From Nitrospirota bacterium (GTDB lineage Bacteria; Nitrospirota; Nitrospiria; Nitrospirales; Nitrospiraceae): DNA of 64,000 nucleotides. Shown in pieces: positions 23,131 through 44,683 of the stretch (positions are counted from its first letter, which is position 1; every line of letters begins with the position of its first letter). Under the pieces are notes generated by a model, which was not told the DNA's origin, ran no database searches, and saw only the letters and a list, made by a program, of their open reading frames with translations. A program made the position numbers and the translations under genes. The stretch covers positions 186,001 to 250,000 of the forward strand of contig JBFMAX010000001.1 of the NCBI GenBank assembly GCA_040755395.1. The letters run 5' to 3'.

Positions 23131-23250
23131 ACGACGCCTCTAAGCCTTTCCACGAAAGCCATCCGACACTCGCTTTTTCAGCCAACAGTACTCGACGGGC
23201 CTTCAAAGGTCAACAGGGCTGTTCATTCCTGCCCTGTCCTCCGCTCGCCG

Positions 23251-23413: not shown

Positions 23414-23572
23414 CGGACCGTTGTCCGCTGCCCGTCTTCCGTTGTCCATTCTCCGTTGTCCGTTTCCCGCAGCCCGCGTCCCGCTCACGGATGACGGATT
23501 GCGGAATGCGGAGAGCGGATCGCGGGCTGCGGGGTGCGGATCGCGGAAAACGGGCCACGGACGACGGATCAT
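23414..23572. repeat. GCGG-word hairpin repeat after cas6 fragment A
   Basis: The first half is built of GTCCGTTG/CCCGC words and the second half of their complements (GCGGATTGCGGAATGCGGAG), giving a long imperfect inverted repeat of ~75 bases per arm. Confidence 0.65.
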
Positions 23573-24820: not shown

Positions 24821-24840
24821 CCGGAGATCAGAAGGTGACT

Positions 24841-24882
24841 GCGACCGGCGCTCCTGGAAACCCGGCCTCGCGCACGACATGG
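24841..24882 (+). pseudogene. cas6 3'-region fragment B
   Basis: 42 bases matching cas6 22410-22451 and fragment A 23372-23413 with a few changes (CTCCTGGAAACCCGGCCTCG). It ends at the same cas6 base as fragment A and leads into the same kind of hairpin repeat. Confidence 0.75.
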
Positions 24883-25021
24883 CGGACCGTTGTCCGTTGT
24901 CCGTCGCCCGTTAGCTGAAAACGGTTAACGGACGACGGTTGACGGTTCACGGAATGCGGGTCGCGGGTCGCGGTAAACGGGAGACGGTTCACGGTAAACG
25001 GGCCACGGACGACGGATCACC
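24883..25021. repeat. GCGG/ACGG-word hairpin repeat after cas6 fragment B
   Basis: Words such as CCGTTGTCCG on the left and CGGACGACGGTTGACGGTTC on the right. Same position relative to the cas6 fragment and the 419-bp repeat as at 23414-23572, but with diverged words. Confidence 0.6.
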
Positions 25022-25440
25022 GTCTTGACCCCAGATGTCACACCGGTGTGGTACACAGAATGCCCTCTCCCTGTCGTCTTCCCCTCTCCCCTCGCGGGAG
25101 AGGGCGAGGGTGAGGGGAGATACCGAAACCCATAACCCCAGGGTTGAACGATGGAACGATCAGTAATCATGGCAAGCCCGCATTATTCATGGAGGTTCGT
25201 CGCGAAATCGCGCAGTCGCCAGGCGAGACGGGTGCGTGGAGCCGCGAGGAAGGGAGGCGTGCTCCCGGCAGCACGTTGACCGACCGAGCGGCGAGCCCGC
25301 CCGCTGGCATGCCTCAAAACCGGCATGCCAGCTTGTCGCAGCGGCGAATCCGCGATTGCAGCAGAAGCGTTCATGAATAATGCGGGCAGGAGCGGCCACG
25401 TGGATGCAGGCGCGCGGCTGGAAACAGAAGCTCGCCAAGC
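25022..25440. repeat. 419-bp direct repeat, copy B (with second MITE at 25176-25387)
   Basis: Second copy of 23573-23991. The MITE-like element, including both 16-base terminal repeats, lies at 25176-25387. The copy ends exactly where the IS630 left flank begins to differ from copy A. Confidence 0.85.
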
Positions 25441-25490: not shown

Positions 25491-27794
<2,304 letters not shown>

Positions 27795-30380: not shown

Positions 30381-32154
30381 CACTATCCAGACCTTTCGAA
30401 TCCGTAAGAGCACGGGCACGCACGCCGACGTCTTCGCCGCGGTGGGGCTGGCGGACTTGCTTCGGTCTGTTCAGGATGCCGGAGCCGTCCGACTGATCGA
30501 GCGCGAGGCCGAATTTGAGGTCCACCTACTGACACCAATGGGGAAAGCTGCACTTGTTGACCGTATCCCGAAAATCCCTGGTTATCCGTTCCTGAAGGCA
30601 AACGAGAACGTTCGGGTCCCCGCTGGTGTTCATGATTTTGTCGACTACAAAGCCGAGAAGGCCAAGGCTGATCGGAAGAAACAGTTTGCCGGATCAAAGA
30701 GAAAGAACAAGCAGAAAGTCGTTGATGTCGAAACACAACAGCTCATTCAAGAAGAACAGCTTCGCGAGGACTGGCGCCTACTTCAGGTCCTCAACACATT
30801 GCAGGGCGACGAAACCGCGAACAGGGTTCATGAGACCATCATACGAAAAAGACCAGAACAATTTCGAAGCGATTTAGCCAATGCACTGGATGCCGTGGTT
30901 AGACAGAAACCGGCCAACCTAGATTGGAAGGTGAGCACCGTACAACTCTTCACCCCTATTGCGGCCAAGGGATACAGCCGGCTCAAGCCCGACAGCACGG
31001 ATCGGAATGACAAGACCAAGGAGCAATGGGCTGATCCCTTCACAGAGTGGCTGCGATATCGGGGTTATTTCCGCACCGCCTGCCCGTTTTTTCAGGGGCA
31101 GAAGGCCGAACATGTCCGCCTCGTTTGTCCTATTCCTTACAATATATCAATTGGTGCGATAGAGTCGGTAGCCCGAGAGCTACGAAAGGGCGGCGTCTAT
31201 GGCGGTTCTCCCAAGATGGACGCATTGGCAGTCCTCAAGCTGGCCGAACTTTTGGTGCGCCATTCAGAGGAGTACCACGACCCCTATGCGGAAGTCTTCC
31301 CCGGTCTTTCGTTGAGAGGAAAGACCCCAGCAGAAGCCATCTCGGGAGTGACGGTGACCCATTATCAGTCTTTGGGAAAGGCGCACGCTGTCTCCGCCAT
31401 GTCTTCGCTCGCTCTGCCAGGGTGGTTTCCCATTGAGAGTAAAAAGGATGCCGGCGACTGGCTAGCCATTCTGGACGAGCATCAGCGAATCATCCGAAGA
31501 CTTCAGGACGACCGATCCGATGAGATCGGGCTTCTTGTGGCGTATCGGCGTCTTCTGGAGAAACGCAGTGAGAGTGCCATCTGGGCGCTGGTAGAGTTCA
31601 TGGAACGATACGGACCGTTCGTGATGCGTGCAAACGGTTTAAGACTAAACGGGCGGGTTCGGTGGATACGGCGGTTCACGGACCAGCACTTCAGGAGGAT
31701 CATTATGGGAACAAATGCGCATCTCGTGGAGATCATTAACGATGCCGGATTCGAAGCGGTTGCGAGAGCAGTTCGCCAGGCAACGGTAACTTCGCAGAAC
31801 CGAAAGGCGCGTGGTGAGCAAGTCTGGCGCGAGATCCGCTATGAGTTACTGCACGACCTGCACCGCACTCGCAAGGCTCCCGGCAATGCCTTTATCGAAT
31901 GCGTCATGGAGTTTATTTCGCACTACAACCGCGAAAATGCCCGGCATCGTGAAACGACAAAGAACCCCAAGGCCGCGCCGGCCAACGTGAGCGACGAAGA
32001 GCTGAAAGAATTCGTGGCATTGGTCGATCGCCATGGAGCGGCGGTTGTCGGTGCTCTTCTCGCCGCATACGGCTCCTGCAAGGAGAAATGGGAGCCCGAA
32101 GATGTCGATTCTGCTCAGGAGTCCGACGGAACGTCAGGAGATCGGCAACCGTAA
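30373..32154 (+). CDS. Putative Cascade large subunit (Cas8-like)
   Basis: A 593-residue protein starting at ATG 30373, inside the end of cas3. Position, size and operon context match the Cas8 large subunit that recognises the PAM and recruits Cas3. I cannot recognise a family motif from sequence alone. Seen: a lysine-rich stretch (~85-120, KAEKAKADRKKQFAGSKRKN), a Thr/Tyr/Phe-rich middle (FRTACPFFQGQKAEHVRLV), HYQSLGKAHAVSAMSSLALPGWFPI, and a helical C-terminal third that may stand for a fused small subunit (Cas11). No zinc-binding Cys clusters. Confidence 0.6.
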   Translation: MSDTIQTFRIRKSTGTHADVFAAVGLADLLRSVQDAGAVRLIEREAEFEVHLLTPMGKAALVDRIPKIPGYPFLKANENVRVPAGVHDFVDYKAEKAKADRKKQFAGSKRKNKQKVVDVETQQLIQEEQLREDWRLLQVLNTLQGDETANRVHETIIRKRPEQFRSDLANALDAVVRQKPANLDWKVSTVQLFTPIAAKGYSRLKPDSTDRNDKTKEQWADPFTEWLRYRGYFRTACPFFQGQKAEHVRLVCPIPYNISIGAIESVARELRKGGVYGGSPKMDALAVLKLAELLVRHSEEYHDPYAEVFPGLSLRGKTPAEAISGVTVTHYQSLGKAHAVSAMSSLALPGWFPIESKKDAGDWLAILDEHQRIIRRLQDDRSDEIGLLVAYRRLLEKRSESAIWALVEFMERYGPFVMRANGLRLNGRVRWIRRFTDQHFRRIIMGTNAHLVEIINDAGFEAVARAVRQATVTSQNRKARGEQVWREIRYELLHDLHRTRKAPGNAFIECVMEFISHYNRENARHRETTKNPKAAPANVSDEELKEFVALVDRHGAAVVGALLAAYGSCKEKWEPEDVDSAQESDGTSGDRQP

Positions 32155-32180
32155 AGGTTGAAGATAAATGGAGGAGTGCT

Positions 32181-33146
32181 ATGGGAACCGTACGCTCGCT
32201 TTCACTGTCTGCTCGGATCACGCTTGATCTTCATAGTCTGAACAACGAGGGAACCGAGGGAAACCAGCAGCAAACCCGAATGGTGCATATCATTGATCAG
32301 AAAGGCCAACGCGCTGTGGTGAACGCGGTGAGTGGCGACATGTTCAAGCATATCCTGGTGGGGCACTTGGTGCCGCTGCTCGAAGAGGCTAACCAACCTC
32401 TGTCAGAACCTGCCAGACGGCTGGATCCAGATCGTATCACGGCGGATGCTGAGTTCTTGCAACTCGCCGAAAACCACGACGGTTCAAATGCAGACCTGCT
32501 TACCGAGGTTCTCACACGATGCAGTTTAACCGATCTCGCTGGTGCTCTGTTCGTCGACGCCGCTCTTCCGCGCAAATCATGCATTGAGTTCGGTTGGGTG
32601 GTTGGGCTTCCGACAGATGGCAACGGAGCGCCGCTCACAACCACTGAACAGTACTTTCATGTGAAATACGCCGCCGAGCGAGGTGGTGCGGCAGGTGAGG
32701 AGACAACGGTGGGGAAGCAGCCTATTTTCCACCGACCCGCCTCCTCCGGCATCTACGCTCTCATCTGCAACCTGGACCTCTACCGCATCGGTCTCAACGA
32801 TATCACGCAGCAGTACGTGATCGACGCTCCCGGAAGGCAGGCCAGAGCCAGGGCCCTCGTTCATTCACTGGTCGCAACCCTACTGAAGCCTGCTGGCGCC
32901 CAGCGGAACACCCAGAATCCGCACATCGTGGCATGCGAGGGGGTTGTTGCAGTTTCCAGCACTTCGCTGCCCGCGCCCACTGTGAGTCCCCTTCACGACA
33001 ACTACCGGGACCAGATCGAGAGAGCGGCGGCAGTGCTGAACGGGATCAAGGCAAATGGGATTGCAGTCCTGTCCTTTGATACGCTGGCGGATGGCGTGAA
33101 GGTCTTGGCGGGTGTCGCCGCCGATCTTCAGGTTCCAGGAGCTTAA
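32181..33146 (+). CDS. cas7: Cas7 backbone protein, DevR/Csa2 type
   Basis: A 321-residue RAMP protein forming the crRNA-binding backbone of Cascade. The start ATG 32181 follows GGAGGAG. The opening LSLSARITLDLHSLNNEGTE and VNAVSGDMFKHI is the DevR/Csa2 signature (TIGR01875-type), seen mostly in subtypes I-A and I-B. This argues against subtype I-G, whose Cas7 (Csb1) looks different. It lies 26 bases after cas8 and 3 before cas5. Confidence 0.88.
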   Translation: MGTVRSLSLSARITLDLHSLNNEGTEGNQQQTRMVHIIDQKGQRAVVNAVSGDMFKHILVGHLVPLLEEANQPLSEPARRLDPDRITADAEFLQLAENHDGSNADLLTEVLTRCSLTDLAGALFVDAALPRKSCIEFGWVVGLPTDGNGAPLTTTEQYFHVKYAAERGGAAGEETTVGKQPIFHRPASSGIYALICNLDLYRIGLNDITQQYVIDAPGRQARARALVHSLVATLLKPAGAQRNTQNPHIVACEGVVAVSSTSLPAPTVSPLHDNYRDQIERAAAVLNGIKANGIAVLSFDTLADGVKVLAGVAADLQVPGA

Positions 33147-33149
33147 ACG

Positions 33150-33959
33150 ATGGCGAGGAAGAAGAAACCTGATGTCAAGGAACCCAAAGAGAACAAACGG
33201 GCAGCCCGCCTTGCAGTACTGGCGCAGCCCACCGCCATTGCAGGTGTGCCGGGGCCCGGGCACTGGCTCATAGCCGAATACCAGCCCACAGCCCTTTTCT
33301 CTTTGAAGATCAGCCTGGCGACTAGCTCTGTAGGAAAGACCTTGGTTGTGCCGACACCCTATAGCATAAAGATGGCCTTCGTCGACGCGGCGTTTAGAGC
33401 GCGTTTGTCCGACCTAGAGTGTGAGGATTTCCTCAGGTCGCTGGTCGGTGTTGAGGTCCGCATCAGGCCTCCTGAAGCAGCTTGTATCACACACACGTTT
33501 GTAAAGGTTCGACAAGAGCCCAAAACGCCCGATCCGCTTCGCCCCTACATCGACAGCATCGCGTATCGGGAAGTTGTCCACTACCAGGGTACTTGGGGGT
33601 GGGCCTTCGATCTGGCAACCGGAGACGATACGCTGGCCGAGCGGCTTGTTCGGATTGCTCCCCACGTTGCCTATATTGGCAAGCGCGGCTCGTTTATTCA
33701 ATTTGTTGGTGTCTCTCGTGCTCAAGAGCTTGGCCCAGACTTTACGCAACCTGTCCAGAACGAGCACCCTTGGACACTTCCGCCGAGAGCGCATATTGCA
33801 GTCCTGGACGATTTTGGTCCGGAGGCAAACCTAGACGTTCTCAGTTCCTTCACGAAAAAGTCGCCTAAGCGAGACTGGCACAGACGGTTCCTCGAAACTA
33901 TTGTCCCTTTGGGATTGGTGAATACTGGGCCAGGCTTCAGTGAGTATCGCAGCAGATAG
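33150..33959 (+). CDS. cas5: Cas5 RAMP protein
   Basis: A 269-residue protein right after cas7, as Cas5 usually is. Seen: a lysine-rich N-terminal extension (~1-20) not typical of Cas5, then a RAMP-type core with ALFSLKISLATSSVGKTLVVPTPYSIKMA and the glycine-containing loop GKRGSFIQFVGV. It caps the 5' handle of the crRNA. The N-terminal extension and the weak match outside the core keep the confidence moderate. Confidence 0.7.
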   Translation: MARKKKPDVKEPKENKRAARLAVLAQPTAIAGVPGPGHWLIAEYQPTALFSLKISLATSSVGKTLVVPTPYSIKMAFVDAAFRARLSDLECEDFLRSLVGVEVRIRPPEAACITHTFVKVRQEPKTPDPLRPYIDSIAYREVVHYQGTWGWAFDLATGDDTLAERLVRIAPHVAYIGKRGSFIQFVGVSRAQELGPDFTQPVQNEHPWTLPPRAHIAVLDDFGPEANLDVLSSFTKKSPKRDWHRRFLETIVPLGLVNTGPGFSEYRSR

Positions 33960-34322
33960 ATGCATGCGAGCGAGATTTTCTGGCCCGACGACTGCGGGGT
34001 GATCCTGGAGACAAAAGACTACCACGATCACCCGAAAAAGCTGCTCCTCTACCAGGACGGCGAGGCGACGCCGGTGTCGGATTTGATGAGCCGGCAGAAT
34101 CATATCTTCACCGTGGTGCCGCGCGCGGCGGTGAAGGAGGAACTCGATTGGCGTCTGCCCGTCTTCGAGGCTGGCCCGCACCTGCTCGCCTTCGACGGCG
34201 CGGCACTGCTGGTGGTGGAGCTGTGGCGGCGCAGTTATGATGCTGCGCCAAGAGAATATGGTGCTGTAAAGGAGAAAGACACTCATGAAAGCTGTCAAGA
34301 TTCAGACTGGCGGCTCAATTAA
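33960..34322 (+). CDS. Small unknown protein of the cas operon; source of repeated 3' ends
   Basis: Starts on the base after the cas5 stop (TAG-ATG), so it is translated with the cas operon. The first ~75 residues (SEIFWPDDCGVILETKDYHDHPKKLLLYQDGE) form an unknown domain with a Cys and several His/Asp; the end (FEAGPHLLAFDGAALLVVELWRR) is the part that recurs, diverged, at 34967, 35921, 36812, 37583 and 38967. Beyond that the frame runs into the next antitoxin gene, so the original C-terminus may have been altered by insertion of the cassette. I do not recognise a family. Confidence 0.6.
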   Translation: MHASEIFWPDDCGVILETKDYHDHPKKLLLYQDGEATPVSDLMSRQNHIFTVVPRAAVKEELDWRLPVFEAGPHLLAFDGAALLVVELWRRSYDAAPREYGAVKEKDTHESCQDSDWRLN

Positions 34323-34527
34323 ACTTCCGAAAGAGATCATGCGGCTTTTTCCCCGTACAAGCGAGTTGGCCGTGTGGACGGAGGGCGACATGATCATCCT
34401 CAAACGCCTGAGCCCACTCAAGCCGTCTGAGATCGCAGAACGGGCCCCTGAGAAGGAGATGCCGCTCCAGGAGATTACGGCCGAAGTGCACCGCATGCGC
34501 CGCGAAAAGCGGGGGCGGCGTGGCTAA
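34285..34527 (+). CDS. AbrB/SpoVT-type antitoxin, copy 1
   Basis: An 80-residue protein. MKAVKIQTGGSIKLPKEIMRLF followed by ELAVWTEGDMIILKRL is the swapped-hairpin AbrB-type DNA-binding fold; the tail (ITAEVHRMRREKRGRRG) is basic. It precedes a PIN toxin gene by 9 bases. An identical copy is at 36901. Confidence 0.85.
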   Translation: MKAVKIQTGGSIKLPKEIMRLFPRTSELAVWTEGDMIILKRLSPLKPSEIAERAPEKEMPLQEITAEVHRMRREKRGRRG

Positions 34528-34536
34528 AGTCCGCGT

Positions 34537-34953
34537 GTGCTCGACACGAACGTCTGTATCTCTGGTCTCCTATGGACCGGCATTCCTCACCGTCTTATAC
34601 GAGCAGCCGAGGTTGGAGAGCTTTCCCCAGTCACAACCCCGGCCATCATGAATGAGATGCGCGAGGCCCTGAACCGTCCTAAATTTGCCCAGAGGATTCA
34701 TGCCTTAAACACTTCGGTCGGCGAATTGATGGAATCCTTGCTTGGCATTGTCGAGGTCGTACAGGACACTCGAATTGAACGGGTGATTGAACACGATCCC
34801 GACGATGACACAATCTTGGCCTGTGCTGTCGCCTCACGGGCACAGTGGATCGTTTCTGGCGATGAGCATCTGCTGGCATTGAAGGAGTATCGGGGCATTC
34901 CGATCCTGACTCCAAAAGCCTTCTGGGATCGGTGGTCGAAATCTCCACGGTGA
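34537..34953 (+). CDS. PIN-domain toxin (PIN_3-like), copy 1
   Basis: 138 residues from GTG 34537: MLDTNVCISGLLW (first Asp), TTPAIMNEMREAL (Glu), DPDDDTILACAVA (Asp residues) and IVSGDEHLLAL. All catalytic acids are present. Upstream in another frame lies GTG GCT AAA GTC CGC GTG (MAKVRV), which with one added base would give the usual MAKVRVVLDTNV start; both copies share this, so a base may have been lost before duplication. The first strand is therefore short and activity uncertain. Confidence 0.85.
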   Translation: MLDTNVCISGLLWTGIPHRLIRAAEVGELSPVTTPAIMNEMREALNRPKFAQRIHALNTSVGELMESLLGIVEVVQDTRIERVIEHDPDDDTILACAVASRAQWIVSGDEHLLALKEYRGIPILTPKAFWDRWSKSPR

Positions 34954-34966
34954 CGAGGCGAAACTT

Positions 34967-35013
34967 CTGCTCGCCTTCGACGGCGCGGCGCTGCTGCCGC
35001 TGGGACTCCGGCG
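34967..35013 (+). repeat. Recurring 3'-end segment R2
   Basis: CTGCTCGCCTTCGACGGCGC followed by GGCGCTGCTG, encoding LLAFDGAALL; same core as the end of the 33960 gene. It separates the first and second toxin-antitoxin cassettes. Confidence 0.75.
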
Positions 35014-35064
35014 TCGGAACTGATGCGTCGAACATCGACGAACACCCGGCCGGCGGATAGAGTA

Positions 35065-35349
35065 GTGACGTCACTACATTGTAAAGGAGGCATGGCGCCA
35101 TATTTTTCCAAAGCGGTCAAGGTCGTGAAGGCCGGAGAAGAGGTCGTGCTGACGGAATGCGGCAAACCGATCGCGGTAATCAAGCCGTTGGACGGGGACG
35201 CCACGGGTGAAGCGCTGATGCGGCGCCTCGAAACGAGCGGCGTCCTGCGGCCGGCGTCCAAACCTTCGCCATTGCCGCCCTGGCGGCCGCGCCCGCTGCG
35301 GGGAAAGCCGTTGTCCAGGACGCTGCGTGAAGAGCGCGACGCGTCGTGA
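35065..35349 (+). CDS. Phd/YefM-type antitoxin
   Basis: From GTG 35065 the product reads VTSLHCKGGMAPYFSKAVKVVKAGEEVVLTECGKPIAVIKPL, which lines up with the Phd DNA-binding domain over its full length. An ATG at 35092 has AGGAGG directly before it with only one base between, too close, and would cut off the first helix. The tail is Pro/Arg-rich. It overlaps the broken PIN gene by 4 bases. Confidence 0.75.
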   Translation: MTSLHCKGGMAPYFSKAVKVVKAGEEVVLTECGKPIAVIKPLDGDATGEALMRRLETSGVLRPASKPSPLPPWRPRPLRGKPLSRTLREERDAS

Positions 35350-35772
35350 AGCGGCCGGCCTGGGCCTATTTCGGCACCAGCGCGCTGCTCAAGCGCTACG
35401 TTCGGGAGGACGCCTCGGCGCAGGCCCGGACCTTCCTTCGACGGCATCGGTGTTTGTCCTCGGCCATTTTGCCTGTCGAGATGATGTCGGCGCTGAGCCG
35501 GCGACCTGGCCGACCGGCATTTTCGGGCGATCATCGCCCGCCTCCGACAGGATCGCGCCTATTGGGAATTGGTGGAAGCGAGTCCCCAGGTTCTCGCGCA
35601 GGCTGAGGACTTGGTGCGCACCCTGGCTCTCCGCGCCCTGGACGCGATCCATGTCGCATCGGTGATGACGGTTCAGGCCACCTCCGGTATCGGCATCCCG
35701 TTGGTTACGGCAGACGCACAGCAGCGGAAGGCGGCCGAGCTGTTACGGATCTCGGTCCTGTGGGTCGGTTAA
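35346..35772 (+). pseudogene. PIN-domain toxin, frameshifted and missing its first Asp
   Basis: The start reads VKRPAWAYFGTSALLKRYV where the family has FDTSALLK: GGC replaces GAC, removing the first catalytic Asp. After SSAILPVEMMSALSRR (near 35500) the frame breaks; the rest of the domain continues one frame over as GDLADRHFRAIIARLRQDRA... LRALDAIHVASVM and PLVTADAQQRKAAEL. Both changes would inactivate the toxin while the antitoxin stays intact. Confidence 0.85.
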
Positions 35773-35920
35773 GATAGCGTGGCTTCGCGGTTCATCGTCC
35801 TTCGACGGCGCGGCTGCTCCGGGAAATGGACCGACAGTCGCGTGGGAAGCGGGCGCGCGTTACCTCGTGAGCCAGCGGACCTTGATGAGATGTTCCACGG
35901 CGCAGAACTCTGAGTCGTTA

Positions 35921-36010
35921 CGTCTGCGCGTCTTCGAGGCCGGCCCGTACCTGCTCGCCTTTGACGGCGCGGCCCTGCTGCTGGTGGAAATGAGTCGGCG
36001 GAAGGTATGA
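35921..36010 (+). pseudogene. Recurring 3'-end segment R3, longest copy
   Basis: Encodes LRVFEAGPYLLAFDGAALLL then VEMSRRKV and a stop, a diverged copy of the end of the 33960 gene with its probable natural C-terminus. A shorter match (TTCGACGGCGCGGCTG) lies at 35804. It precedes the third cassette. Confidence 0.75.
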
Positions 36011-36036
36011 AGGGGCAATGGCGCTGTCGGGCGGAC

Positions 36037-36474
36037 TCAAGCGAGTGAGCCGACGCGGGAGAGGTGACGAACGCGTGACAAAGAGTGGGTACGGTCGAAG
36101 AGGCGGCGATCGGCCGTGATGAAGGGGCAGTCGAGCTCAACGGCGAGCGCTACGAACGAGGCATCGTAGAAGGTGAGACCCCATTTGCGACCCAGACTGG
36201 CAGCCCGTTTCAGGAGAGGCATGGCCGGCGGAGCGACAGTAAACGGTAGACGCTCCAGATGCTCGAGGGCATCATCCAGCGCCGTGGCGTCAAGGCTGGT
36301 CTTCAAGAGCAGGATGTTCCCGATCTCGTACAGAAGCAGTGCCGGGACATGCACATCAAGAGACAGCTTCTCCACCTCGGCGAGCAGGGCACGCGCCTCC
36401 CTGACCAGCGTTTCGTCCTTCGTTTTCACCCACTTGACCAGCACCGAGGAGTCAACGACGATCTTTTCGGCCAT
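36037..36474 (-). CDS. VapC-type PIN toxin
   Basis: 145 residues: KIVVDSSVLVKWV (Asp), PALLLYEIGNILL (Glu), GLTFYDASFVALA (Asp) and PFITADRRLFDR (Asp). All catalytic positions are present. Together with the RHH antitoxin gene upstream, which it overlaps by 23 bases, it forms the third cassette, the only one here on the minus strand. Confidence 0.88.
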   Translation of the reverse strand: MAEKIVVDSSVLVKWVKTKDETLVREARALLAEVEKLSLDVHVPALLLYEIGNILLLKTSLDATALDDALEHLERLPFTVAPPAMPLLKRAASLGRKWGLTFYDASFVALAVELDCPFITADRRLFDRTHSLSRVRHLSRVGSLA

Positions 36475-36715
36475 ACCGGCTCTCGCGGTAATAGCGGATG
36501 ATATCCGTCGAATCCCACTGGCCGACCCATTGCTGCTCGAGCTCCCGCAGCGGGGCCAGCGCGTCTTTCCAGGAGCGACGGCGACTGCCTTCCCCGCTCA
36601 AGTGCGAGCGCAATGCCTCACGGATCAACTCGCTGCGGGACCGGTCCTGGGCATCAGCAGCACGGTCCACCTTTTTCAGAAATTCGTCTGGAAGAGAAAC
36701 CATGACCTTAGCCAT
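36452..36715 (-). CDS. Ribbon-helix-helix (CopG-type) antitoxin
   Basis: 87 residues beginning AKVMVSLPDEFLKKVDRAAD and RSRSELIREALRSHL, the ribbon-helix-helix fold, followed by a toxin-binding tail with WVGQWDSTDIIRYYRESR. Partner of the overlapping PIN toxin. Confidence 0.87.
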   Translation of the reverse strand: MAKVMVSLPDEFLKKVDRAADAQDRSRSELIREALRSHLSGEGSRRRSWKDALAPLRELEQQWVGQWDSTDIIRYYRESRYGRKDRR

Positions 36716-36900
36716 CAGAGTTCAACCTCCAAGAGGAGCATAGCACCGGGTCCGGACAATGGCAATACTAATTATAGCCTCACCCTGGCTCCGCGTCAGT
36801 GAGACTCTTGCCGGCGCGGCACTGCTGGTGGTGGAGCTGTGGCGGCGCAGTTATGATGCTGCGCCAAGAGAATATGGTGCTGTAAAGGAGAAAGACACTC

Positions 36901-37143
36901 ATGAAAGCTGTCAAGATTCAGACTGGCGGCTCAATTAAACTTCCGAAAGAGATCATGCGGCTTTTTCCCCGTACAAGCGAGTTGGCCGTGTGGACGGAGG
37001 GCGACATGATCATCCTCAAACGCCTGAGCCCACTCAAGCCGTCTGAGATCGCAGAACGGGCCCCTGAGAAGGAGATGCCGCTCCAGGAGATTACGGCCGA
37101 AGTGCACCGCATGCGCCGCGAAAAGCGGGGGCGGCGTGGCTAA
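36901..37143 (+). CDS. AbrB/SpoVT-type antitoxin, copy 2
   Basis: Identical protein to 34285-34527 (MKAVKIQTGGSIKLPKEIM...). As the copies are identical, either antitoxin should neutralise either toxin. Confidence 0.85.
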   Translation: MKAVKIQTGGSIKLPKEIMRLFPRTSELAVWTEGDMIILKRLSPLKPSEIAERAPEKEMPLQEITAEVHRMRREKRGRRG

Positions 37144-37152
37144 AGTCCGCGT

Positions 37153-37569
37153 GTGCTCGACACGAACGTCTGTATCTCTGGTCTCCTATGGACCGGCATT
37201 CCTCACCGTCTTATACGAGCAGCCGAGGTTGGAGAGCTTTCCCCAGTCACAACCCCGGCCATCATGAATGAGATGCGCGAGGCCCTGAACCGTCCTAAAT
37301 TTGCCCAGAGGATTCATGCCTTAAACACTTCGGTCGGCGAATTGATGGAATCCTTGCTTGGCATTGTCGAGGTCGTACAGGACACTCGAATTGAACGGGT
37401 GATTGAACACGATCCCGACGATGACACAATCTTGGCCTGTGCTGTCGCCTCACGGGCACAGTGGATCGTTTCTGGCGATGAGCATCTGCTGGCATTGAAG
37501 GAGTATCGGGGCATTCCGATCCTGACTCCAAAAGCCTTCTGGGATCGGTGGTCGAAATCTCCACGGTGA
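37153..37569 (+). CDS. PIN-domain toxin, copy 2
   Basis: Identical to 34537-34953, including the shortened N-terminus. See that entry for motifs. Confidence 0.85.
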   Translation: MLDTNVCISGLLWTGIPHRLIRAAEVGELSPVTTPAIMNEMREALNRPKFAQRIHALNTSVGELMESLLGIVEVVQDTRIERVIEHDPDDDTILACAVASRAQWIVSGDEHLLALKEYRGIPILTPKAFWDRWSKSPR

Positions 37570-37726
37570 CGAGGCGAAACTTCTGCTCGCCTTCGACGGC
37601 GCGGCGCTGCTGCCGCTGGGACTCCGGCGACGGCGGTCTTTCAGACATGCGGAATGAGATGACGAACAGCCGGCCTTCGGCGATAATGCGTAACCACGCG
37701 CCCTAGCTGAGAAGGGAGAACAGGCC

Positions 37727-37945
37727 ATGAAGACCTACAAGGGTGTCGTCAAAGGTAACACCGTCGTGCTCGATGAGAAGCCCGATCTTCCCGCTGAGTG
37801 CCCGGCGTTGGTGGAGATCAAGCCGCTTGATCAGGCCACCCGTGATGAGGAAATCACAAGGCACCAGCTTGAGCTGTTGAAGCGTCCGCATAAGGGAGGC
37901 AAGCTCCTCTACCGACGCCGCGAGGAGCTCTATGACTGCTGGTGA
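37727..37945 (+). CDS. DUF104/AF2212-like antitoxin
   Basis: 72 residues starting MKTYKGVVKGNTVVLDEKPD, the small beta-barrel of the AF2212-like antitoxin family, then ALVEIKPLD. The tail ELLKRPHKGGKLLYRRREEL is basic. The start follows GAAGGGAGAA. A PIN gene normally follows; here only a remnant remains. Confidence 0.75.
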   Translation: MKTYKGVVKGNTVVLDEKPDLPAECPALVEIKPLDQATRDEEITRHQLELLKRPHKGGKLLYRRREELYDCW

Positions 37946-38015
37946 GCGGCTTATTGACTCCGATGTTCTGGTTAAGGACGGCCCGTTGAGCGGCCAAGAA
38001 CGCGAGGGATGGTAG
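37932..38015 (+). pseudogene. Remnant of a PIN toxin N-terminus
   Basis: A 27-residue frame, MTAGERLIDSDVLVKDGPLS..., overlaps the antitoxin stop as toxin genes do and shows the first PIN strand (LIDSDVLV), then runs into unrelated sequence and stops. The rest of the toxin has been lost. Confidence 0.6.
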
Positions 38016-38025
38016 GGATGGTGTG

Positions 38026-38502
38026 ATGGAATTGGGTCAGGCGAAACATGAATGGCTTGGCGAGGTGGTGGCCGCGCTGGAGCAGCGACTTGGTTCTGAC
38101 CTGGTCGCGGTGGTGTTGTTCGGATCACACGCGCGGGGTGACCATTGGGAAGAAAGCGACTGGGACCTGTTGGTCATCGCTCGCAATCTTCCGGCGAGCC
38201 CCTTCGAACGCAGTCGCGGACTCCGAGCATGGCTCCCCCCGGCCCGTCGTGCCCAGGTATCGTTGCTTGCCAAGACGCCGCAGGAATTTGACGCCGGCGT
38301 TCCGAGCCTGTGGCTCGACATCGCCTTGGACGGCGTCGTGCTCTATGACCCGCTCAACTATGCTACCGAGCGGCTTGGTCGGCTACGACGATTGATCGAC
38401 CGGATGGGGCTGATTCGTGAACGCCGGGGCCATGACCTAGTGTGGCGGTGGAAACGGTTTCCCGGATTCGCCTGGTCCTTCACGTGGGAGCAAGCTTCAT
38501 GA
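38026..38502 (+). CDS. MNT-type nucleotidyltransferase
   Basis: 158 residues with VVLFGSHARGDHWEESDWDL, the G-S-x10-D-x-D catalytic signature. The C-terminal part (LWLDIALDGVVLYDP, RRGHDLVWRWKR) is longer than in the MNT at 24470. The HEPN gene follows with a 4-base ATGA overlap; the order (MNT first) is opposite to the pair at 24.1-24.8 kb, so the two pairs are separate acquisitions. Confidence 0.88.
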   Translation: MELGQAKHEWLGEVVAALEQRLGSDLVAVVLFGSHARGDHWEESDWDLLVIARNLPASPFERSRGLRAWLPPARRAQVSLLAKTPQEFDAGVPSLWLDIALDGVVLYDPLNYATERLGRLRRLIDRMGLIRERRGHDLVWRWKRFPGFAWSFTWEQAS

Positions 38503-38891
38503 CCGGAGAGCACGCCGCCTATCGCCTGCGGATGGCCACCGGCTTTCTGGGTGAGGCGCAGCAGGATGTGAGCCTGGGCCGGTGGCGATCGGCCGTGGAC
38601 AATGCCCAGCTCGCCGCCGAGAACGGTGTCAAGGCGGTGTTATCGCTCACAGGGCCCGTCGGTCGGACCCATGCGCCGACTGTGCCGCTCCGAGAGGCAC
38701 TCGCCCGGGGAGAGTTTCCCCCTGAGTTCACCGAGCGACTTCACCGACTGATCGAGCACGCCGAGATGCTCGGTCACGACGTTCACGTCCAGACCGATTA
38801 CGGAGACGAAGCGGCCGGACGCACGCCGTGGGAGCTGTTCACCGAAAACGATGCTCGCCGGGCCGTTGCGGAGGCGGAGCAGGTTGTGTAG
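38499..38891 (+). CDS. HEPN-domain protein
   Basis: 130 residues from ATG 38499. A helical HEPN-like fold: YRLRMATGFLGEAQQDVSLGRW, AVDNAQLAAENGVKAVLSL, FTERLHRLIEHAEMLGHDVHV, ending in TPWELFTENDARRAVAEAE. A clear R-x4-6-H RNase motif is not evident, so it may be a non-nuclease member. Partner of the MNT gene before it. Confidence 0.78.
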   Translation: MTGEHAAYRLRMATGFLGEAQQDVSLGRWRSAVDNAQLAAENGVKAVLSLTGPVGRTHAPTVPLREALARGEFPPEFTERLHRLIEHAEMLGHDVHVQTDYGDEAAGRTPWELFTENDARRAVAEAEQVV

Positions 38892-38966
38892 TCGGCGCGG
38901 CGCGTTATTGAGGCAATTGGTGGCTAATCGGCGGCTTCGCCACCTTGGCGAAGAAGACAGAAGGCC

Positions 38967-39039
38967 CTGCTCGCCGTTCTCCGGCGCAGCGCTGCTGCTG
39001 GTGGAAATGGAACGGAAGTCTGGGCAGGGTTCAGGCTAA
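38967..39039 (+). repeat. Recurring 3'-end segment R6, next to cas1
   Basis: CTGCTCGCCGTTCTCCGGCG then CAGCGCTGCTGCTGGTGGAA; in one frame FSGAALLLVEMERKSGQGSG and stop. It is the last copy before cas1 and ends like R3 (LLLVEM). Confidence 0.7.
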
Positions 39040-39375: not shown

Positions 39376-40599
39376 ATGGCTATGAGCGCACAAGCGCCTG
39401 AACCTAATCCCCTCCCTCGTATCCATCCTGAAGTTGCGGCGCCTGAGCCCGCGCGCGAGCTGCCTCCAACGCAGATCAATCTCTTTACCGGCGAGCCGGA
39501 AGCCGTAGTCGTACCGATTGAGACCGAGCCGCCGGACGGCGAGGAGCGGATCATCGATGAGGGTATCCGGATGGTCAAGACCGGCGACACGTCGCAGGTG
39601 GTGTTGTCCGGGTTCGGGATGTTTCTGTCGAAGAAGAGCGAGCGGTTGCTGGTCCGTCAGAACAAGACCGTCATCTATGAATTTCCCTTTTTCCGGTTGA
39701 GCGAGGTGGTGGTAGCCTCGCGCGGCGTGACGCTCTCCTCCGACTTGATCGAAGAGTTGTGCCAGCGCGGCATCCGACTCAGCTTTCTCACGAGCGGCGG
39801 CAAACCGTATGCGATGCTGTCCTCCCCGATGCTGACCGCGACGGTGATTTCGCGGCGGGAACAGTTGGCTGCGATCGCGGACGAGCGAGGCGTCGAGTTC
39901 GCGAAGTCGATCGTCACCGGCAAGCTGACCAATCAGGAACGGCTGCTCCGCTATTTCGGCAAGTACCTGAAGCAGGCCGACCCGGAACGCTTTGCGCGCG
40001 TGGATCGGGTCGCCGACCAACTCGCGGACTTGCGGCCGGCGGTCGAGCGGATCGCGGGCTTATGCATCGATGACGTGCGGGATTCCCTGATGGGCTATGA
40101 GGGGACCGCCGGACGCCTGTATTGGGATGGCATCAAGGAGATCATTGGTCAGCGCGCGGAGTTCATGGGGCGCGAGCATCGGGGCGCGACCGACGCCGTC
40201 AATGCTCTGCTGAACTATGGGTATGGCATTCTATACGCGCAGGTGTGGGGCGCGGTCTTGAATGCCGGGCTGGAACCCTTCGCCGGATTTCTCCATGTGG
40301 ATCGCCCGGGGAAGCCATCGTTGGTCCTGGATCTGGTCGAGGAATTTCGGCAACCGGTCGTGGATCGGACCGTGATCGCCCATATCAATCTCGGCGAAGC
40401 CGTCACGCTGAAGGCCGGCATGCTGGATGAGGAGACCCGCTCGCGGTATGCGGCCAAGATTCTGGAACGCCTGGAATCCACCGAGACGGTGAAAGGCAAG
40501 AAGTACCAGATCAAGTCCATTATCCAGATGCAGGCGCGGAATCTGTGCACGTTCTTGCGTCGAGAAGGAGACTATAAGCCGTTTGGGTTTAAGTGGTGA
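39376..40599 (+). CDS. cas1: Cas1 integrase
   Basis: Catalytic subunit of the spacer-integration complex. ATG 39376 chosen; upstream sequence is unlike Cas1. The first ~75 residues form a Pro/Glu-rich extension containing INLFTGEPEAVVV, not usual in Cas1. The core begins at DTSQVVLSGFGMFLSKKSERLL. Metal ligands: Glu in YEGTAGRLYWDG, His in GFLHVDRPGKPSLVLDLVEEFR with its Asp/Glu. It is followed by a hairpin repeat, cas2 and cas4, not fused to cas4. Confidence 0.95.
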   Translation: MAMSAQAPEPNPLPRIHPEVAAPEPARELPPTQINLFTGEPEAVVVPIETEPPDGEERIIDEGIRMVKTGDTSQVVLSGFGMFLSKKSERLLVRQNKTVIYEFPFFRLSEVVVASRGVTLSSDLIEELCQRGIRLSFLTSGGKPYAMLSSPMLTATVISRREQLAAIADERGVEFAKSIVTGKLTNQERLLRYFGKYLKQADPERFARVDRVADQLADLRPAVERIAGLCIDDVRDSLMGYEGTAGRLYWDGIKEIIGQRAEFMGREHRGATDAVNALLNYGYGILYAQVWGAVLNAGLEPFAGFLHVDRPGKPSLVLDLVEEFRQPVVDRTVIAHINLGEAVTLKAGMLDEETRSRYAAKILERLESTETVKGKKYQIKSIIQMQARNLCTFLRREGDYKPFGFKW

Positions 40600-40779
40600 G
40601 ACCGCGGTCCGCAAACCGCTTCCCGCGGCCCGCTTTGCGCGGACAGCCTGGATACTGAGTGCCGATGCGCCAAGCGGGAAGCGGAACGCGGGGCGCGGAT
40701 TGCGGACTGCGGACAGAGACAGAGCGGATAGCGGGATGCGGACCGCGGATGGCGGATAGCGGATCGCGGGCAGCGGATC
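40600..40779. repeat. GCGG-word hairpin repeat between cas1 and cas2
   Basis: Left arm of CCGC words (CGGTCCGCAAACCGCTTCCC), right arm of GCGGATAGCGGGATGCGGAC words, up to the cas2 start codon. It leaves cas2 without a visible ribosome site, so the repeat probably inserted between the genes. Confidence 0.7.
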
Positions 40780-41097
40780 ATGGAGGAACTGACCACGTAT
40801 GTGTTGTACGACATTCCCGACGATGGCGTTCGGACCAAGATTGCCGATGTCTGCAAAGACTACGGGCTCGAGCGCGTTCAATTCAGTGCGTTTTGCGGCC
40901 CGCTTACGCGTAATAAGCGAGAGGAACTCTTTCTCCGGCTTGGAGACACGTTAGGAGACCGCACCGGGAAGATCCTCCTGCAGCCTGTTTGCCAGAAGGA
41001 TGTGACGGTCAGTTTACGGATCGAGAATGAGGAGACCGGCGCCGAGCCCGAATCAGCCCAAACTGATGCTCCGGGTGAACGACCTGAAGCAGTATGA
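40780..41097 (+). CDS. cas2: Cas2 adaptation protein
   Basis: 106 residues. TTYVLYDIPDDGVRTKIADV with GLERVQFSAFCG is the ferredoxin-fold Cas2 start, then QPVCQKDV. The tail (ENEETGAEPESAQTDAPGERPEAV) is acidic and unusually long. It forms the central dimer of the Cas1-Cas2 complex. Its end overlaps cas4. Confidence 0.93.
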   Translation: MEELTTYVLYDIPDDGVRTKIADVCKDYGLERVQFSAFCGPLTRNKREELFLRLGDTLGDRTGKILLQPVCQKDVTVSLRIENEETGAEPESAQTDAPGERPEAV

Positions 41098-41635
41098 CTA
41101 CTGCCCGCGCGTCGTGTATTACCAGTACGTCATGCCGGTCGAGCGGAAGGCGACCTTCAAGATGGAGCATGGCAAGTCGGCTGAAGCACGACTGGATGCG
41201 TTGGAGCGACGGCGGGGTGTGCGCCGTTATAAGCTGCCCGATGGCCAGCGTCATTTTCATGTGTGGCTGACTTCCGACACTCTGGGGCTGTCCGGCAAGC
41301 TGGACTTGCTGATTGAATCGTCAACCGGCTGGTATCCGGTCGATTTCAAGGAGACGACCGGTCCTGCGCGATCGAATCATCTCTTGCAACTGTGCGGATA
41401 CGCCATGCTGGTCGAGGAAGCGTATCAGTGTTCGGTTCCTCGTGGATTCATCTACCTGATTCCAGGGAATCGAATCGAGCCCGTCGAGCTGACCGACGAG
41501 CTCAGGGCTGAAACGCTCCGCGCCCTGGATCGTATTCAAGAGATGATCCTGTTGCAGCGCGTCCCGGAAGCGACCGAGGTTCGAGCCCGTTGCACGGACT
41601 GCGAGTATCGCAACTATTGTGGGGACGTGTTTTGA
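41066..41635 (+). CDS. cas4: Cas4 nuclease
   Basis: 190 residues from ATG 41066. RecB-type nuclease that trims prespacers and selects PAM. One Cys in QYDYCPRVVYY and three in CTDCEYRNYC form the iron-sulfur cluster; GLSGKLDLLIE and YPVDFKET supply the Asp-Glu-Lys nuclease residues. It overlaps cas2 by 32 bases in another frame. Presence of Cas4 fits subtypes I-A to I-D and I-G. Confidence 0.93.
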   Translation: MLRVNDLKQYDYCPRVVYYQYVMPVERKATFKMEHGKSAEARLDALERRRGVRRYKLPDGQRHFHVWLTSDTLGLSGKLDLLIESSTGWYPVDFKETTGPARSNHLLQLCGYAMLVEEAYQCSVPRGFIYLIPGNRIEPVELTDELRAETLRALDRIQEMILLQRVPEATEVRARCTDCEYRNYCGDVF

Positions 41636-41811
41636 TCTGCGATCCGCAGACCGCTGTCCGCTGTCCGCCTTCCGCCGCCGGAGACCGGGTCGCGGATTGC
41701 GGGAAGCGGGTTTTCGCAAACCACCCCGGGTTTATGGCAATTGCGAGGCTTTCGATGAACTGGCTCTGGACAACGACAAAGTGGCTTGGTTTATTGCGGC
41801 CTTCGTGAGCG
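41636..41811 (+). promoter_or_regulatory. Probable CRISPR leader, with a GCGG-word repeat at its start
   Basis: Between cas4 and the first repeat. The first ~75 bases are a GCGG/CCGC-word element; the rest (from ~41712) is less GC-rich and lies directly before repeat 1. The leader call rests on its place beside the adaptation genes and on the crRNA handle orientation. Confidence 0.5.
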
Positions 41812-44191
41812 GTTGAAGAGCCCTTCCCTATGAAGAGGGAACTGAAAGATGGAGCAATACCAACACGCAATTTTGCTCCATGAAATGTTGAAGAGCCCTT
41901 CCCTATGAAGAGGGAACTGAAAGAAGGGACATCATCCGAGCACACCTAAGCTACAAGGAGAGTTGAAGAGCCCTTCCCTATGAAGAGGGAACTGAAAGGC
42001 GCACGATCACCCACGGCGGGCGACCACTTCCACGCGTTGAAGAGCCCTTCCCTATGAAGAGGGAACTGAAAGCCCTTTGCGCGGTGGCCAGCACCATGCT
42101 GGCCTCGGTTGAAGAGCCCTTCCCTATGAAGAGGGAACTGAAAGGGCGTTAAAGAAGGTGCCGCCGCCACTGTTGACCCAGTTGAAGAGCCCTTCCCTAT
42201 GAAGAGGGAACTGAAAGAATCAACCTGCGCGCGCTGGCTGAGTTCCCACGCCCGTTGAAGAGCCCTTCCCTATGAAGAGGGAACTGAAAGGCAGTTGCTC
42301 GATCTCGGTATAGGCGAGCGCGACGGTTGAAGAGCCCTTCCCTATGAAGAGGGAACTGAAAGGCGTGGGGAGCGACGAGGACTGAGCCGGGCACTCCCGG
42401 TTGAAGAGCCCTTCCCTATGAAGAGGGAACTGAAAGCCAGTTGCTGCGGCACCTCCGCCTCTTCCCGCTCATCGTTGAAGAGCCCTTCCCTATGAAGAGG
42501 GAACTGAAAGCTCGGTACCAATCCCATGACCCCAACCACCCACGCGTTGAAGAGCCCTTCCCTATGAAGAGGGAACTGAAAGATCGTAATCGAATCGGCT
42601 GGGGTCGTCGTCAGTTCCGTTGAAGAGCCCTTCCCTATGAAGAGGGAACTGAAAGCTGTGACAGGCGGAACCGTCGGCGACTGTCTCAGCGGTTGAAGAG
42701 CCCTTCCCTATGAAGAGGGAACTGAAAGGTGTAGGAAAACCCATACAGGAAAAGATGAGAAATCGTTGAAGAGCCCTTCCCTATGAAGAGGGAACTGAAA
42801 GGGCTCAGTCACGCCTCACTCGTCGTCATCCTGCGCGTTGAAGAGCCCTTCCCTATGAAGAGGGAACTGAAAGGGCGATTACTGATCCGGCGAGGGAGAT
42901 CGTCGTGGATGTTGAAGAGCCCTTCCCTATGAAGAGGGAACTGAAAGGCATCAGCCGCCAATGCCAGGCATCGAGCAGGCTCAGTTGAAGAGCCCTTCCC
43001 TATGAAGAGGGAACTGAAAGTCTCGATGACACCCCCAGGGCCGGGTCCCTTCACCGTTGAAGAGCCCTTCCCTATGAAGAGGGAACTGAAAGCGAAACAA
43101 GGTAATCTACAGCCAACCCGGACAGTTTCGTTGAAGAGCCCTTCCCTATGAAGAGGGAACTGAAAGGCGGGGATTGCGGCAGTCGGGCTTACAGATAGAG
43201 TCGGTTGAAGAGCCCTTCCCTATGAAGAGGGAACTGAAAGATTGTATAACCAACGACAGCGAGCCAGTAACCTTGATGTTGAAGAGCCCTTCCCTATGAA
43301 GAGGGAACTGAAAGTTTGAAGGAAGCGTGGGCGATACGCTCCACATTCCCGGTTGAAGAGCCCTTCCCTATGAAGAGGGAACTGAAAGCGATCAATTCTG
43401 AGTAGACGGGCAAGAGGCGCTCCTGGTTGAAGAGCCCTTCCCTATGAAGAGGGAACTGAAAGTCTGTTCCATGCGGGTCAGGAGCCGGTGGCTGGTCGGT
43501 TGAAGAGCCCTTCCCTATGAAGAGGGAACTGAAAGATTGGGGCCGCTCCTGGATGCGACCGGGCAGCCCGGTTGAAGAGCCCTTCCCTATGAAGAGGGAA
43601 CTGAAAGGATGGTCCTGATTCGCGTCGGCCAGAGTGACGCCGGTTGAAGAGCCCTTCCCTATGAAGAGGGAACTGAAAGACGAAGTTCTGACCTGGCTCT
43701 CGCTGGGTGCCGGCAGTTGAAGAGCCCTTCCCTATGAAGAGGGAACTGAAAGACCAACGAGAACTGATTCGTGGCGCTCTTGCCCACCGTTGAAGAGCCC
43801 TTCCCTATGAAGAGGGAACTGAAAGATTCACACAGCCACCGCGCGAGCCGCATGGCATGTGGTTGAAGAGCCCTTCCCTATGAAGAGGGAACTGAAAGGG
43901 TCGAACAGAGGAGGGCAGCCATCATGGTCCGCTGTTGAAGAGCCCTTCCCTATGAAGAGGGAACTGAAAGGAGCTTACGGGCGGTTATTGGGCAAGGATT
44001 CTGTATCGTTGAAGAGCCCTTCCCTATGAAGAGGGAACTGAAAGGTCGAGCGCTTCGTCCGCGTGGCCTTGACCGCGATCGGTTGAAGAGCCCTTCCCTA
44101 TGAAGAGGGAACTGAAAGAATCGACTACCGCGGCCAACCCGGCGCGCTGGCCACGTTGAAGAGCCCTTCCCTATGAAGAGGGAACTGAAAG
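41812..44191 (+). CRISPR. CRISPR array, 33 repeats of 37 bp, 32 spacers of 35-38 bp
   Basis: Every repeat reads GTTGAAGAGCCCTTCCCTAT then GAAGAGGGAACTGAAAG with no change seen from first to last. The stem TTCCCT/AGGGAA around ATGAAG leaves ACTGAAAG at the 3' side, which fits an 8-base 5' handle after Cas6 cutting and points to transcription along the plus strand, away from cas4. Spacers are all different. Repeat starts include 41812, 41887, 41962, 42036 ... 44082, 44155. Confidence 0.99.
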
Positions 44192-44683
44192 GCCCGTCTT
44201 CCGCAGCCCGCTTTCCGCAGCCCGGTAGGACAGGACGGAGAATGGGATACGGATCGTGGACAGCAGATTGCTGCCCCAAGCTCTTCCCTAACAAAGGGAA
44301 CCAGAAAACTTTTGGAAGCAATACGCTTCCCTAAAGCGCGTTTTTTGGTTCTTTGAACATCAAGCCCCTATACTTCAAGACAGATAGCTCCGGCTCGCCG
44401 CATCTCGTCATGCGGGGATGTCCCCGCACGGACATGCGCGTCCTGCATGACTCTCCCTGATCTCCTGACCCTCCTCTCTTTCTAACTTCGCGAGTTTCCT
44501 GCCGGTTCAACTTCTCACACCCTCCAGAAGCAGCGGCACCGCCATTGCTCCATCGGTCTGTCGTCTTGAACAGCATGCGGGCCGGCTGGAAAGGAGGTGA
44601 CGGCTCACGAAAGGCCGGCTTTCGCAACACTCATGAGCGATGACGCTTGACCATTGACCTGCTAACTCAAGGAGGAACCGACC
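44192..44683. other. Trailer region: GCGG repeat, decayed CRISPR repeat, possible terminator
   Basis: 44192-44240 is a short CCGCAGCCCGCTTTCCGCAG element; 44278-44309 is a decayed repeat; 44314-44347 holds a hairpin GGAAGC-AATAC-GCTTCC and a later run of six T. The remainder up to the OmpA-domain gene carries a weak minus-strand frame (44331-44630) with no motif. Confidence 0.5.
44278..44309 (+). repeat. Decayed CRISPR repeat beyond the array
   Basis: AAGCTCTTCCCTAACAAAGG then GAACCAGAAAAC keeps the order of the array repeat (stem TTCCCT/AGGGAA, then an A-rich end) with several changes. It lies 87 bases after the last repeat. Confidence 0.55.

Follow-up and report, generated by a model that had tools for sequence, protein, structure and literature searches.

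In a 64,000-nucleotide stretch of the genome of a Nitrospirota bacterium (hereafter the window; contig JBFMAX010000001.1, positions 186,001 to 250,000; G000:C1:186001-250000 in our designation, from a genome of 4.1 Mb), a CRISPR-cas locus (clustered regularly interspaced short palindromic repeats and their associated genes) runs from cas6 through a type I-A effector operon to cas1-cas2-cas4 and an apparent CRISPR array. Within this locus, truncated copies of two gene ends recur among toxin-antitoxin modules, and related arrangements are found in other genomes. We consider it somewhat probable that the repeated gene ends and the cargo that follows them form cassettes, which are loaded and exchanged by recombination at the gene ends.

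According to this proposal, the locus would act as a two-point cassette platform, in which the effector operon between cas6 and cas1-cas2-cas4 is exchangeable and toxin-antitoxin modules are stacked both behind cas6 and behind the last gene of the effector. The unit would consist of a gene end and the following cargo. The gene end would derive from cas6 at the first point, and at the second from a type I-D cas3' gene that has been lost. These ends would provide portable homology: units arriving from another strain, singly or as a run, would recombine with the resident end, presumably by RecA-type homologous recombination. The resident end would be kept on both sides, and each event would leave one extra truncated gene end and one extra addiction module. 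The cost of losing a module probably explains why the modules persist, and their presence may also anchor the cas locus.

The recurring gene ends and their cassettes

A segment coding for LLAFDGAALL near position 34182 recurs, variably diverged, at 34967, 35951, 36812, 37583 and about 38966. This recurrence had been noticed in an earlier reading of the sequence (the original prediction); our search confirmed it and added a weak copy at 35799-35843, which brings the number of copies in the window to seven. The same prediction had taken the segment for the end of a gene of this cas operon, an assignment that has to be replaced. The first 97 codons of the reading frame that carries it (33960-34322) are 74% identical to the end of a 551-amino-acid remnant in G096, a genome of the same order, which matches TIGR03158 over the cut-off (2.5e-26) and PADLOC Cas3d (1.8e-31), that is, type I-D Cas3'. 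The G096 remnant has its 5' end cut off and stands after a type I-B effector, and the window fragment by itself gives no profile match. By these similarities, the segment, which we call the tail, is what remains of the C-terminal part of a type I-D cas3' helicase gene that has been lost, and it now lies behind a type I-A effector. G022 has a type I-D Cas3' of its own, which has the helicase motif alone in common with that of G096, and its tail is therefore also foreign. The lengths of the Cas3' remnants differ widely (551 amino acids in G096, 97 in the window and about 25 elsewhere). Among 99 relatives and a phylum sample of 395 genomes, the source of the tail was met, besides the window's genome, in G096 alone; a scan of wider genome contigs, limited to two peptide patterns, returned one locus, again the G096 record, viral contigs gave none, and plasmids gave one weak match (56% covered at 27.7%). 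A working gene after cas5 was also considered for the 33960 frame and is ruled out, since the frame is a 97-codon remnant of a larger helicase.

In the window, tail copy 1 (33960-34250; features are on the + strand unless stated) comprises the last 97 codons of the lost cas3' and directly follows the stop codon of cas5a. It is succeeded by a first AbrB-like/PIN cassette (34285-34953; PIN_3 7.9e-18), whose PIN stop codon is abutted by tail copy 2 (34951-35023; nhmmer E 1.6e-17), and by a Phd-like/PIN cassette (35023-35772), whose matches to PhdYeFM (E 0.02) and PIN (E 0.003) are both below the curated cut-off and whose PIN toxin is split across two reading frames. Next come the weak, newly found copy 2b (35799-35843; nhmmer E 0.012), which overlaps a repeat termed D5 (35808-35839, similar to 38989-39020), and the longer copy 3 (35921-36012; 88% identical to copy 1 over 80 nt). 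An RHH/PIN cassette on the opposite strand (36037-36715; PIN 5.5e-15, RHH_1 5.8e-10) precedes the hybrid copy 4 (36805-36858), an exact copy of copy 1 from 36812 onward. A second AbrB-like/PIN cassette (36901-37569) forms part of a duplication discussed below and leads into the hybrid copy 5 (37567-37646), which on its left resembles copy 2 and on its right the tail before a DUF104-like gene in G011 and G022. The series closes with a DUF104-like antitoxin gene (37727-37945), colinear with tail and DUF104-like gene in G011, G022 and G233, of whose PIN-like partner apparently the first codons alone remain, followed by an MNT/HEPN pair (38023-38891; Polbeta 4.7e-8, HEPN 2.3e-10) and tail copy 6 before cas1 (38961-39019; nhmmer E 3.7e-12).

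These modules belong to ordinary families, of which Pfam confirms PIN, RHH, MNT and HEPN as well as, in G022, AbiEii. Neither the AbrB-like nor the DUF104-like protein has a Pfam match; both are named from resemblance, as is the Phd-like antitoxin (Pfam E 0.02 at best). Elsewhere in the order, relatives of the PIN protein of the AbrB/PIN cassette (42-48% identity) occur in 6 other genomes of 231. The original prediction of one module in each interval is borne out in that modules do lie between the copies, but the interval from about 35843 to 35921 holds none and three of the family names are those from resemblance; likewise, it rightly saw a second AbrB/PIN cassette, but the copies at 36812 and 37583 belong to one duplication.

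The recurrence of the tail is specific to these loci. A 23-mer searched with at most one mismatch has 4 matches and none in 100 shuffles, and hence is not due to chance. A 41-nt degenerate pattern with at most three mismatches, which fails on the more diverged tails of G011, G022 and G259, was searched in 235 genomes of the order; its 7 occurrences, in 3 genomes, all belong to these cas loci, and the reversed control gave no match among the matches listed. In addition, a profile built from 8 tail copies was searched over 692,665 bases, made up of 11 oriented regions including the window, 20 pieces of 20 kb from the same contig and 3 more loci. It returned 15 matches (weakest E 0.012), all on the cas strand and between the last effector gene and cas1: seven in the window, two each in G011, G259 and G233, and one each in G022 and G096. 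Seven of the 15 lay outside the training set, and three matches, namely the second in each of G011 and G233 and the first in G259, are weak (E 0.002-0.005). No match fell in the 400-kb control from the same contig, and within what was searched the tails are confined to homologous cas loci. A common repeat or a low-complexity sequence, the doubt that the original prediction had raised against itself, is ruled out by close copies in only 3 of the 235 genomes, at cas loci alone, and by the empty 400 kb. Short direct-repeat pairs 300-3500 bases apart number 12 in the 20-kb cas region and 12 in the entire 400-kb control.

The original prediction had placed all loading at one gene; cas6 fragments recur in the same way and add a second point. 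The full-length cas6 of the window (21449-22588, + strand; PADLOC Cas6 3.9e-85), the 3' part of which would be the first loading point, encodes a protein of 75-77% identity to Cas6 of G011, G022, G259 and G233. In these five loci the 3' part of the gene recurs together with modules, with two copies behind modules in each of the window, G022 and G011, one in G259 and two pieces in G233. The cas6 profile has a best match of E 0.28 in the 400-kb control and also matches L035 (the cas6 of G199), L038 and L039. The copies extend to the gene end in G022 and G011; the main copy of the window, like those of G259 and G233, ends earlier, at one shared point (profile position about 187-193 of 324), after which a spacer follows. 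In the window, fragment B (23248-23413, + strand; nhmmer E 3.3e-45, profile 22-187 of 324) is truncated at both ends and is represented in cas6 itself by 22289-22451, with 90.8% identity. Further along, a gene for an MNT-type nucleotidyltransferase (24470-24820, + strand; Pfam Polbeta 9e-13, NTP_transf_2 1.5e-11) is flanked by two copies of relic and spacer (23372-23991 and 24841-25440, 90%), and fragment C (24827-24882, + strand; nhmmer E 1.4e-7, profile 130-187), also truncated at both ends, begins 7 nt past its stop codon.

G-rich short repeats (e.g. GCGGATA and GCGGACC) stand in the window at 22107-22196, 23489-23573 and 40673-40782, in frame within cas6 and also between cas genes, and similar stretches stand before the cas6 relics of G011. 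A second junction zone in the cas6 of G011 was considered and dropped, as short G-rich repeats stand before both copies.

Units shared between species

Apart from the two loading regions, the locus has the type I-A effector operon cas3, cas8a, cas7a and cas5a (27927-33959, + strand; identified by Pfam, NCBIfam and PADLOC) and the adaptation genes cas1, cas2 and cas4 (39382-41635, + strand), whose Cas1 is 90-94% identical in four other genomes. The search for Cas1 among 235 genomes of the order yielded 8 genomes at E 1e-100 or better, six of them with 79-100% identity, and the phylum sample of 395 added more distant relatives, 14 at E 1e-60. The effectors at the six Cas1-related loci are of type I-A (window, G233), I-B (G259, G096), a second I-B form (G011) and I-D (G022), and Cas1 is 87-94% identical among five loci with I-A, I-B (two forms) and I-D effectors, which is the pattern expected of module exchange. 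In all six loci, and thus among four kinds of effector, the last effector gene is followed by a tail, and in four of the six, tails recur among toxin-antitoxin modules.

The original prediction had proposed to look in related genomes for other cassette sets with the same boundary and for an empty site. The former were found in five further loci. The latter is represented by G199, a distant relative (Cas1 61%), in which cas5a is directly followed by cas1 and cas6 adjoins cas3, with no module and no tail match between them; it is too distant to serve as a simple before-state.

Colinearity between the loci indicates that the cargo and the preceding gene end move as one unit. A cas6 end with an MNT/HEPN module follows the real cas6 in G259 and G233 and a cas6 relic in G022 (79.6% over 952 bp in comparison with G259). 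A cas6 end with AbiEii is common to G011 and G022 (83.3% over 1123 bp), and a third cargo stands after the real cas6 in the window and after a relic in G011 (66.8% over 482 bp). Furthermore, the tail with the DUF104-like gene is common to four genomes (G011, G022, G233 and the window's). The same units occur in different combinations among the loci.

The comparison of G233 with G259 adds an indication of timing. From position +19 past the cas6 stop codon to the start of the relic, their MNT/HEPN cassettes differ at 19 of 786 sites (97.6% identical), and the adjoining cas6 genes differ at 125 of 969 (87% identical; Fisher p 4e-17 against the cassette, an optimistic value since the cassette limits were chosen after the mismatches had been seen). 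Identity falls again in the relic and spacer, where 13 of 154 sites differ, and Cas1 is 86.7% identical. By this measure the cassette moved recently between two loci with different effectors.

Junctions and competing explanations

The best-resolved event in the window is the duplication of the AbrB/PIN cassette. The stretches 34196-35017 and 36812-37633 are identical except for one mismatch in 822 positions, a practically exact duplication of about 820 bp, both junctions of which lie inside tails, and the second copy stands between two other cassettes. Its left junction is at the tail core; on the right, the junction is displaced by about 32 bp along the next tail, and the sequence beyond it matches the tail before the DUF104-like gene in G011 and G022. 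The cassette was evidently copied into a single tail, to judge from these junctions, either by two exchanges inside tails or by one exchange point with conversion. This accords with the original prediction that cassettes enter at, or recombine with, the 3' end of a gene and that the copies mark the boundaries; the order of entry that it also proposed cannot be read with confidence. A simple single crossover is ruled out for the second copy, its junctions being about 32 bp apart.

Two further observations concern the history of the copies. In G022, the outer two of three cas6 ends are 93.6% identical over 156 bp (89.4% over 170 columns with the flank), and the middle one is 83-84% identical to both. 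Such similarities would be expected if a run of units entered between the outer two ends, and they would contradict duplication in situ in either order. In addition, when relics are compared with their own gene (for the tails, copies 2, 3 and 6 with copy 1), 67 of 125 differences pooled over 11 comparisons are at the third position of a codon (p 2e-6 against an expectation of one third). This bias favours, not strongly, copies that would have diverged as working alleles elsewhere.

Several findings weigh against loading and exchange by homologous recombination at the gene ends. Against an assumed proportion of 0.45, a rough expectation if the gene alone was under selection, the third-position bias reaches only p 0.03 and thus goes barely beyond what in-situ duplication would give. 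For seven of the 15 tails (copies 2 and 2b of the window, those in G233, G259 and G022, and two in G011, one of these placed by eye), the stop codon of the left-hand gene closely confines the junction. The left neighbours differ, and all seven junctions fit a single point that, in G096 numbering, lies 103-106 nt ahead of the cas3' stop. The longer tails (window copies 1 and 3, and G096) end elsewhere, and the remainder are loosely bracketed or part of the duplication. At the first loading point, five cas6 junctions fit one point at about position 124-130 of the cas6 profile; three of the five come after one and the same MNT/HEPN module and may go back to a single event, and fragment B of the window has a different starting point. 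The alignment ends have an uncertainty of several bases. These near-constant points are suggestive, though no proof, of a preferred site, and look more site-directed than homology predicts. Homologous recombination alone makes no new junction between cargo and tail, and an origin of the first junctions between gene end and module is presumed in addition; the tails, often of 50-80 bp, are short for RecA; and no intact cas3' with this tail end was found. Some modules lack a tail on one side, namely the MNT/HEPN pair of the window and the last module before cas1 in G022, G233 and G259. Finally, transposase-like genes could have contributed.

Such transposase-like genes stand in the loading regions of the window (25746-27794, apparently split into two frames) and of G011 (L029, 14504-15334; coordinates in L009, L029, L031 and L033 are oriented so that cas1 is on the + strand).

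Although we regard it as unlikely, insertion with a long target duplication comes foremost among the alternatives. A module would insert behind a gene and duplicate 50-200 bp of the target, and the products would later be reshuffled. The geometry of intact gene, module and direct repeat of the gene end matches, and direct repeats of target DNA on the order of 100 bp do flank addiction modules here. The same layout also exists outside cas genes, at L066:715-1931 (G000:C1:300715-301931), where two copies of a 216-bp direct repeat of 97.7% identity, which covers the start of a VOC-like gene, enclose a toxin-antitoxin-like pair of BrnT/BrnA-like appearance. The arrangement thus does not depend on cas genes, and this is the strongest point in favour of target duplication. 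The middle cas6 copy of G022 is the most different one whichever order of insertion is assumed, and thus speaks against it, as do the left ends that are near-constant for different modules and, weakly, the third-position bias.

A slightly more doubtful view is that the 3' ends of cas6 and of the type I-D cas3' are the fixed recombination sites of an undescribed cassette system, which would either lack its own integrase or depend on one acting in trans, and in which cargo (toxin-antitoxin modules and whole effector operons) would enter at one point and carry the gene end onward. If this view were true, the CRISPR locus would be a platform for exchangeable defence cassettes.

Rather improbable, in our judgement, is site-directed loading in which the gene ends are the attachment sites of a recombinase supplied in trans, which would insert at a fixed point, restore the gene and displace the old end. 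One point per gene would fit the seven cas3' and the five cas6 junctions. Elements that integrate into the 3' ends of genes leave the intact gene on one side and a displaced 3' fragment on the other, and a full gene on the left with a displaced end on the right is what the cas loci present. The cassettes differ from such elements in their size of about 0.8 kb, in having no integrase and, in the case of the second AbrB/PIN copy, in lacking one exact crossover core at both ends. No tyrosine recombinase (PF00589) was found within 20 kb of the six loci, nor any PF00589 match between cas6 and cas4 in the six genomes; serine recombinases were not searched. In G259 the nearest tyrosine recombinase (C1:4420014-4420493) lies about 22 kb away from cas6, and in the window's genome (C1:266202) about 39 kb away from cas4, the others being farther away or on other contigs. 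No sequence common to both gene ends is visible, and to produce the second AbrB/PIN copy, exchange would have to occur at two points separated by about 32 bp, or at one point with subsequent conversion. The folding results given below likewise count against it.

The original prediction had compared the arrangement in outline to integrons, which stands as far as the outline goes; membership in an integron array is ruled out. The integron integrase TIGR02249 was found over the cut-off in two of the six genomes, at two places in G011 and one in G096, distant from the cas locus or on another contig, and the window's genome has split pieces of an integron integrase on another contig (G000:C8:28390-28805); in none of the six genomes was one met next to the array. 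Eight folded sequences (seven strands of four tail copies and one cas6 relic, folded with no attC model) gave no consistent attC-like fold, with z values from -1.7 to +1.2 except for one strand of copy 6 (-3.1). The offset junctions of the second AbrB/PIN copy, about 32 bp apart on the tail, likewise limit the comparison.

Very unlikely is a last account, by which unequal recombination would have joined cargo to long cas3' remnants that then eroded to the promoter or operator part needed by the next module, so that the boundary would only look fixed. The very different remnant lengths would suit it, and so would six cases in which hand measurement puts the start of the tail roughly 85-145 nt ahead of the following start codon; the distance is longer in G011 and G022, where inserts are present, and before cas1 of the window. 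Against it, the position of the tail is less variable than this distance, the tails of G011 and G022 tolerate inserts, and the three promoter-like sites found all lie outside tails. Promoter retention as the cause of tail conservation found no support in the same consensus scan (3 sites against 1.0 expected, none within a tail).

The inserts are small, palindromic and GC-rich, and break the tail at nearly the same point in G011 (L029, 13170-13230) and G022 (L031, 14545-14570).

Relation to known systems and further observations

Toxin-antitoxin genes in CRISPR loci and the exchange of effector and adaptation modules were known before; how the pieces join has been less clear. In the Sulfolobales, effector and adaptation modules recombine and vapBC pairs lie inside cas cassettes, and the type III-D cassette of Acidianus hospitalis carries four vapBC pairs, for which a maintenance role was suggested in the part of that account at hand (PMC4390879). 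The likeness to the loci described here lies in the recombination of effector and adaptation modules and in several toxin-antitoxin pairs within one cas cassette; repeated gene ends as boundaries, two fixed loading points and units shared across species do not figure in that part of the account (PMC4390879).

Insertion of restriction-modification modules with long target duplication was reportedly described by Nobusato in 2000 and Furuta in 2010. As in our loci, addiction modules would there lie between direct repeats on the order of 100 bp with no known mobile element, at least as far as the available part of that literature goes. In the cas loci, by contrast, the repeats form a series of diverged copies of a single gene end and also bound whole effector operons, and the same two genes are used in several species. 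For restriction-modification units, variable target duplications on the order of 100 bp are given in the relevant section of a review (PMC3874152).

Chromosomal integrons carry toxin-antitoxin operons as cassettes, and the excerpt concerned describes cassette series, some with complete toxin-antitoxin operons, and a recurring boundary segment (PMC2654758). The present loci share this outline and differ in that no integrase is nearby, no consistent attC-like fold is found and the boundary consists of coding sequence from the end of a cas gene.

Our literature search found no report of repeated gene ends that bound toxin-antitoxin modules in cas loci, and within the literature so covered, the legible boundary, the cargo that keeps the end of the upstream gene, the two fixed points and the occurrence in several species are new. 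As the upstream gene end stays with each piece, cassettes can be counted and traced between species. The ideas that toxin-antitoxin modules guard or parasitise the cas locus, as well as the workings of module exchange, become testable.

Some observations stand apart from these subjects. The apparent CRISPR array lies 3' of cas4 (window 41810-44230), where the repeats give FSSLFIGKGSST-type open frames that are not to be annotated as proteins, and no Rfam family was found in the window between 21000 and 45000. In another family, at L033 of G366 (G366:C50), two toxin-like genes that succeed one another upstream of cas1 are both followed by a 60-bp direct repeat of 90% identity (556-615 and 1305-1364), in the same layout; its parent gene was not found, with just two good copies in that genome and a contig that ends there. 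Lastly, at L060:3972-5936, adjoining transporter-like genes have a near-identical 3' end of 355 bp (97.7%), perhaps a result of gene conversion.

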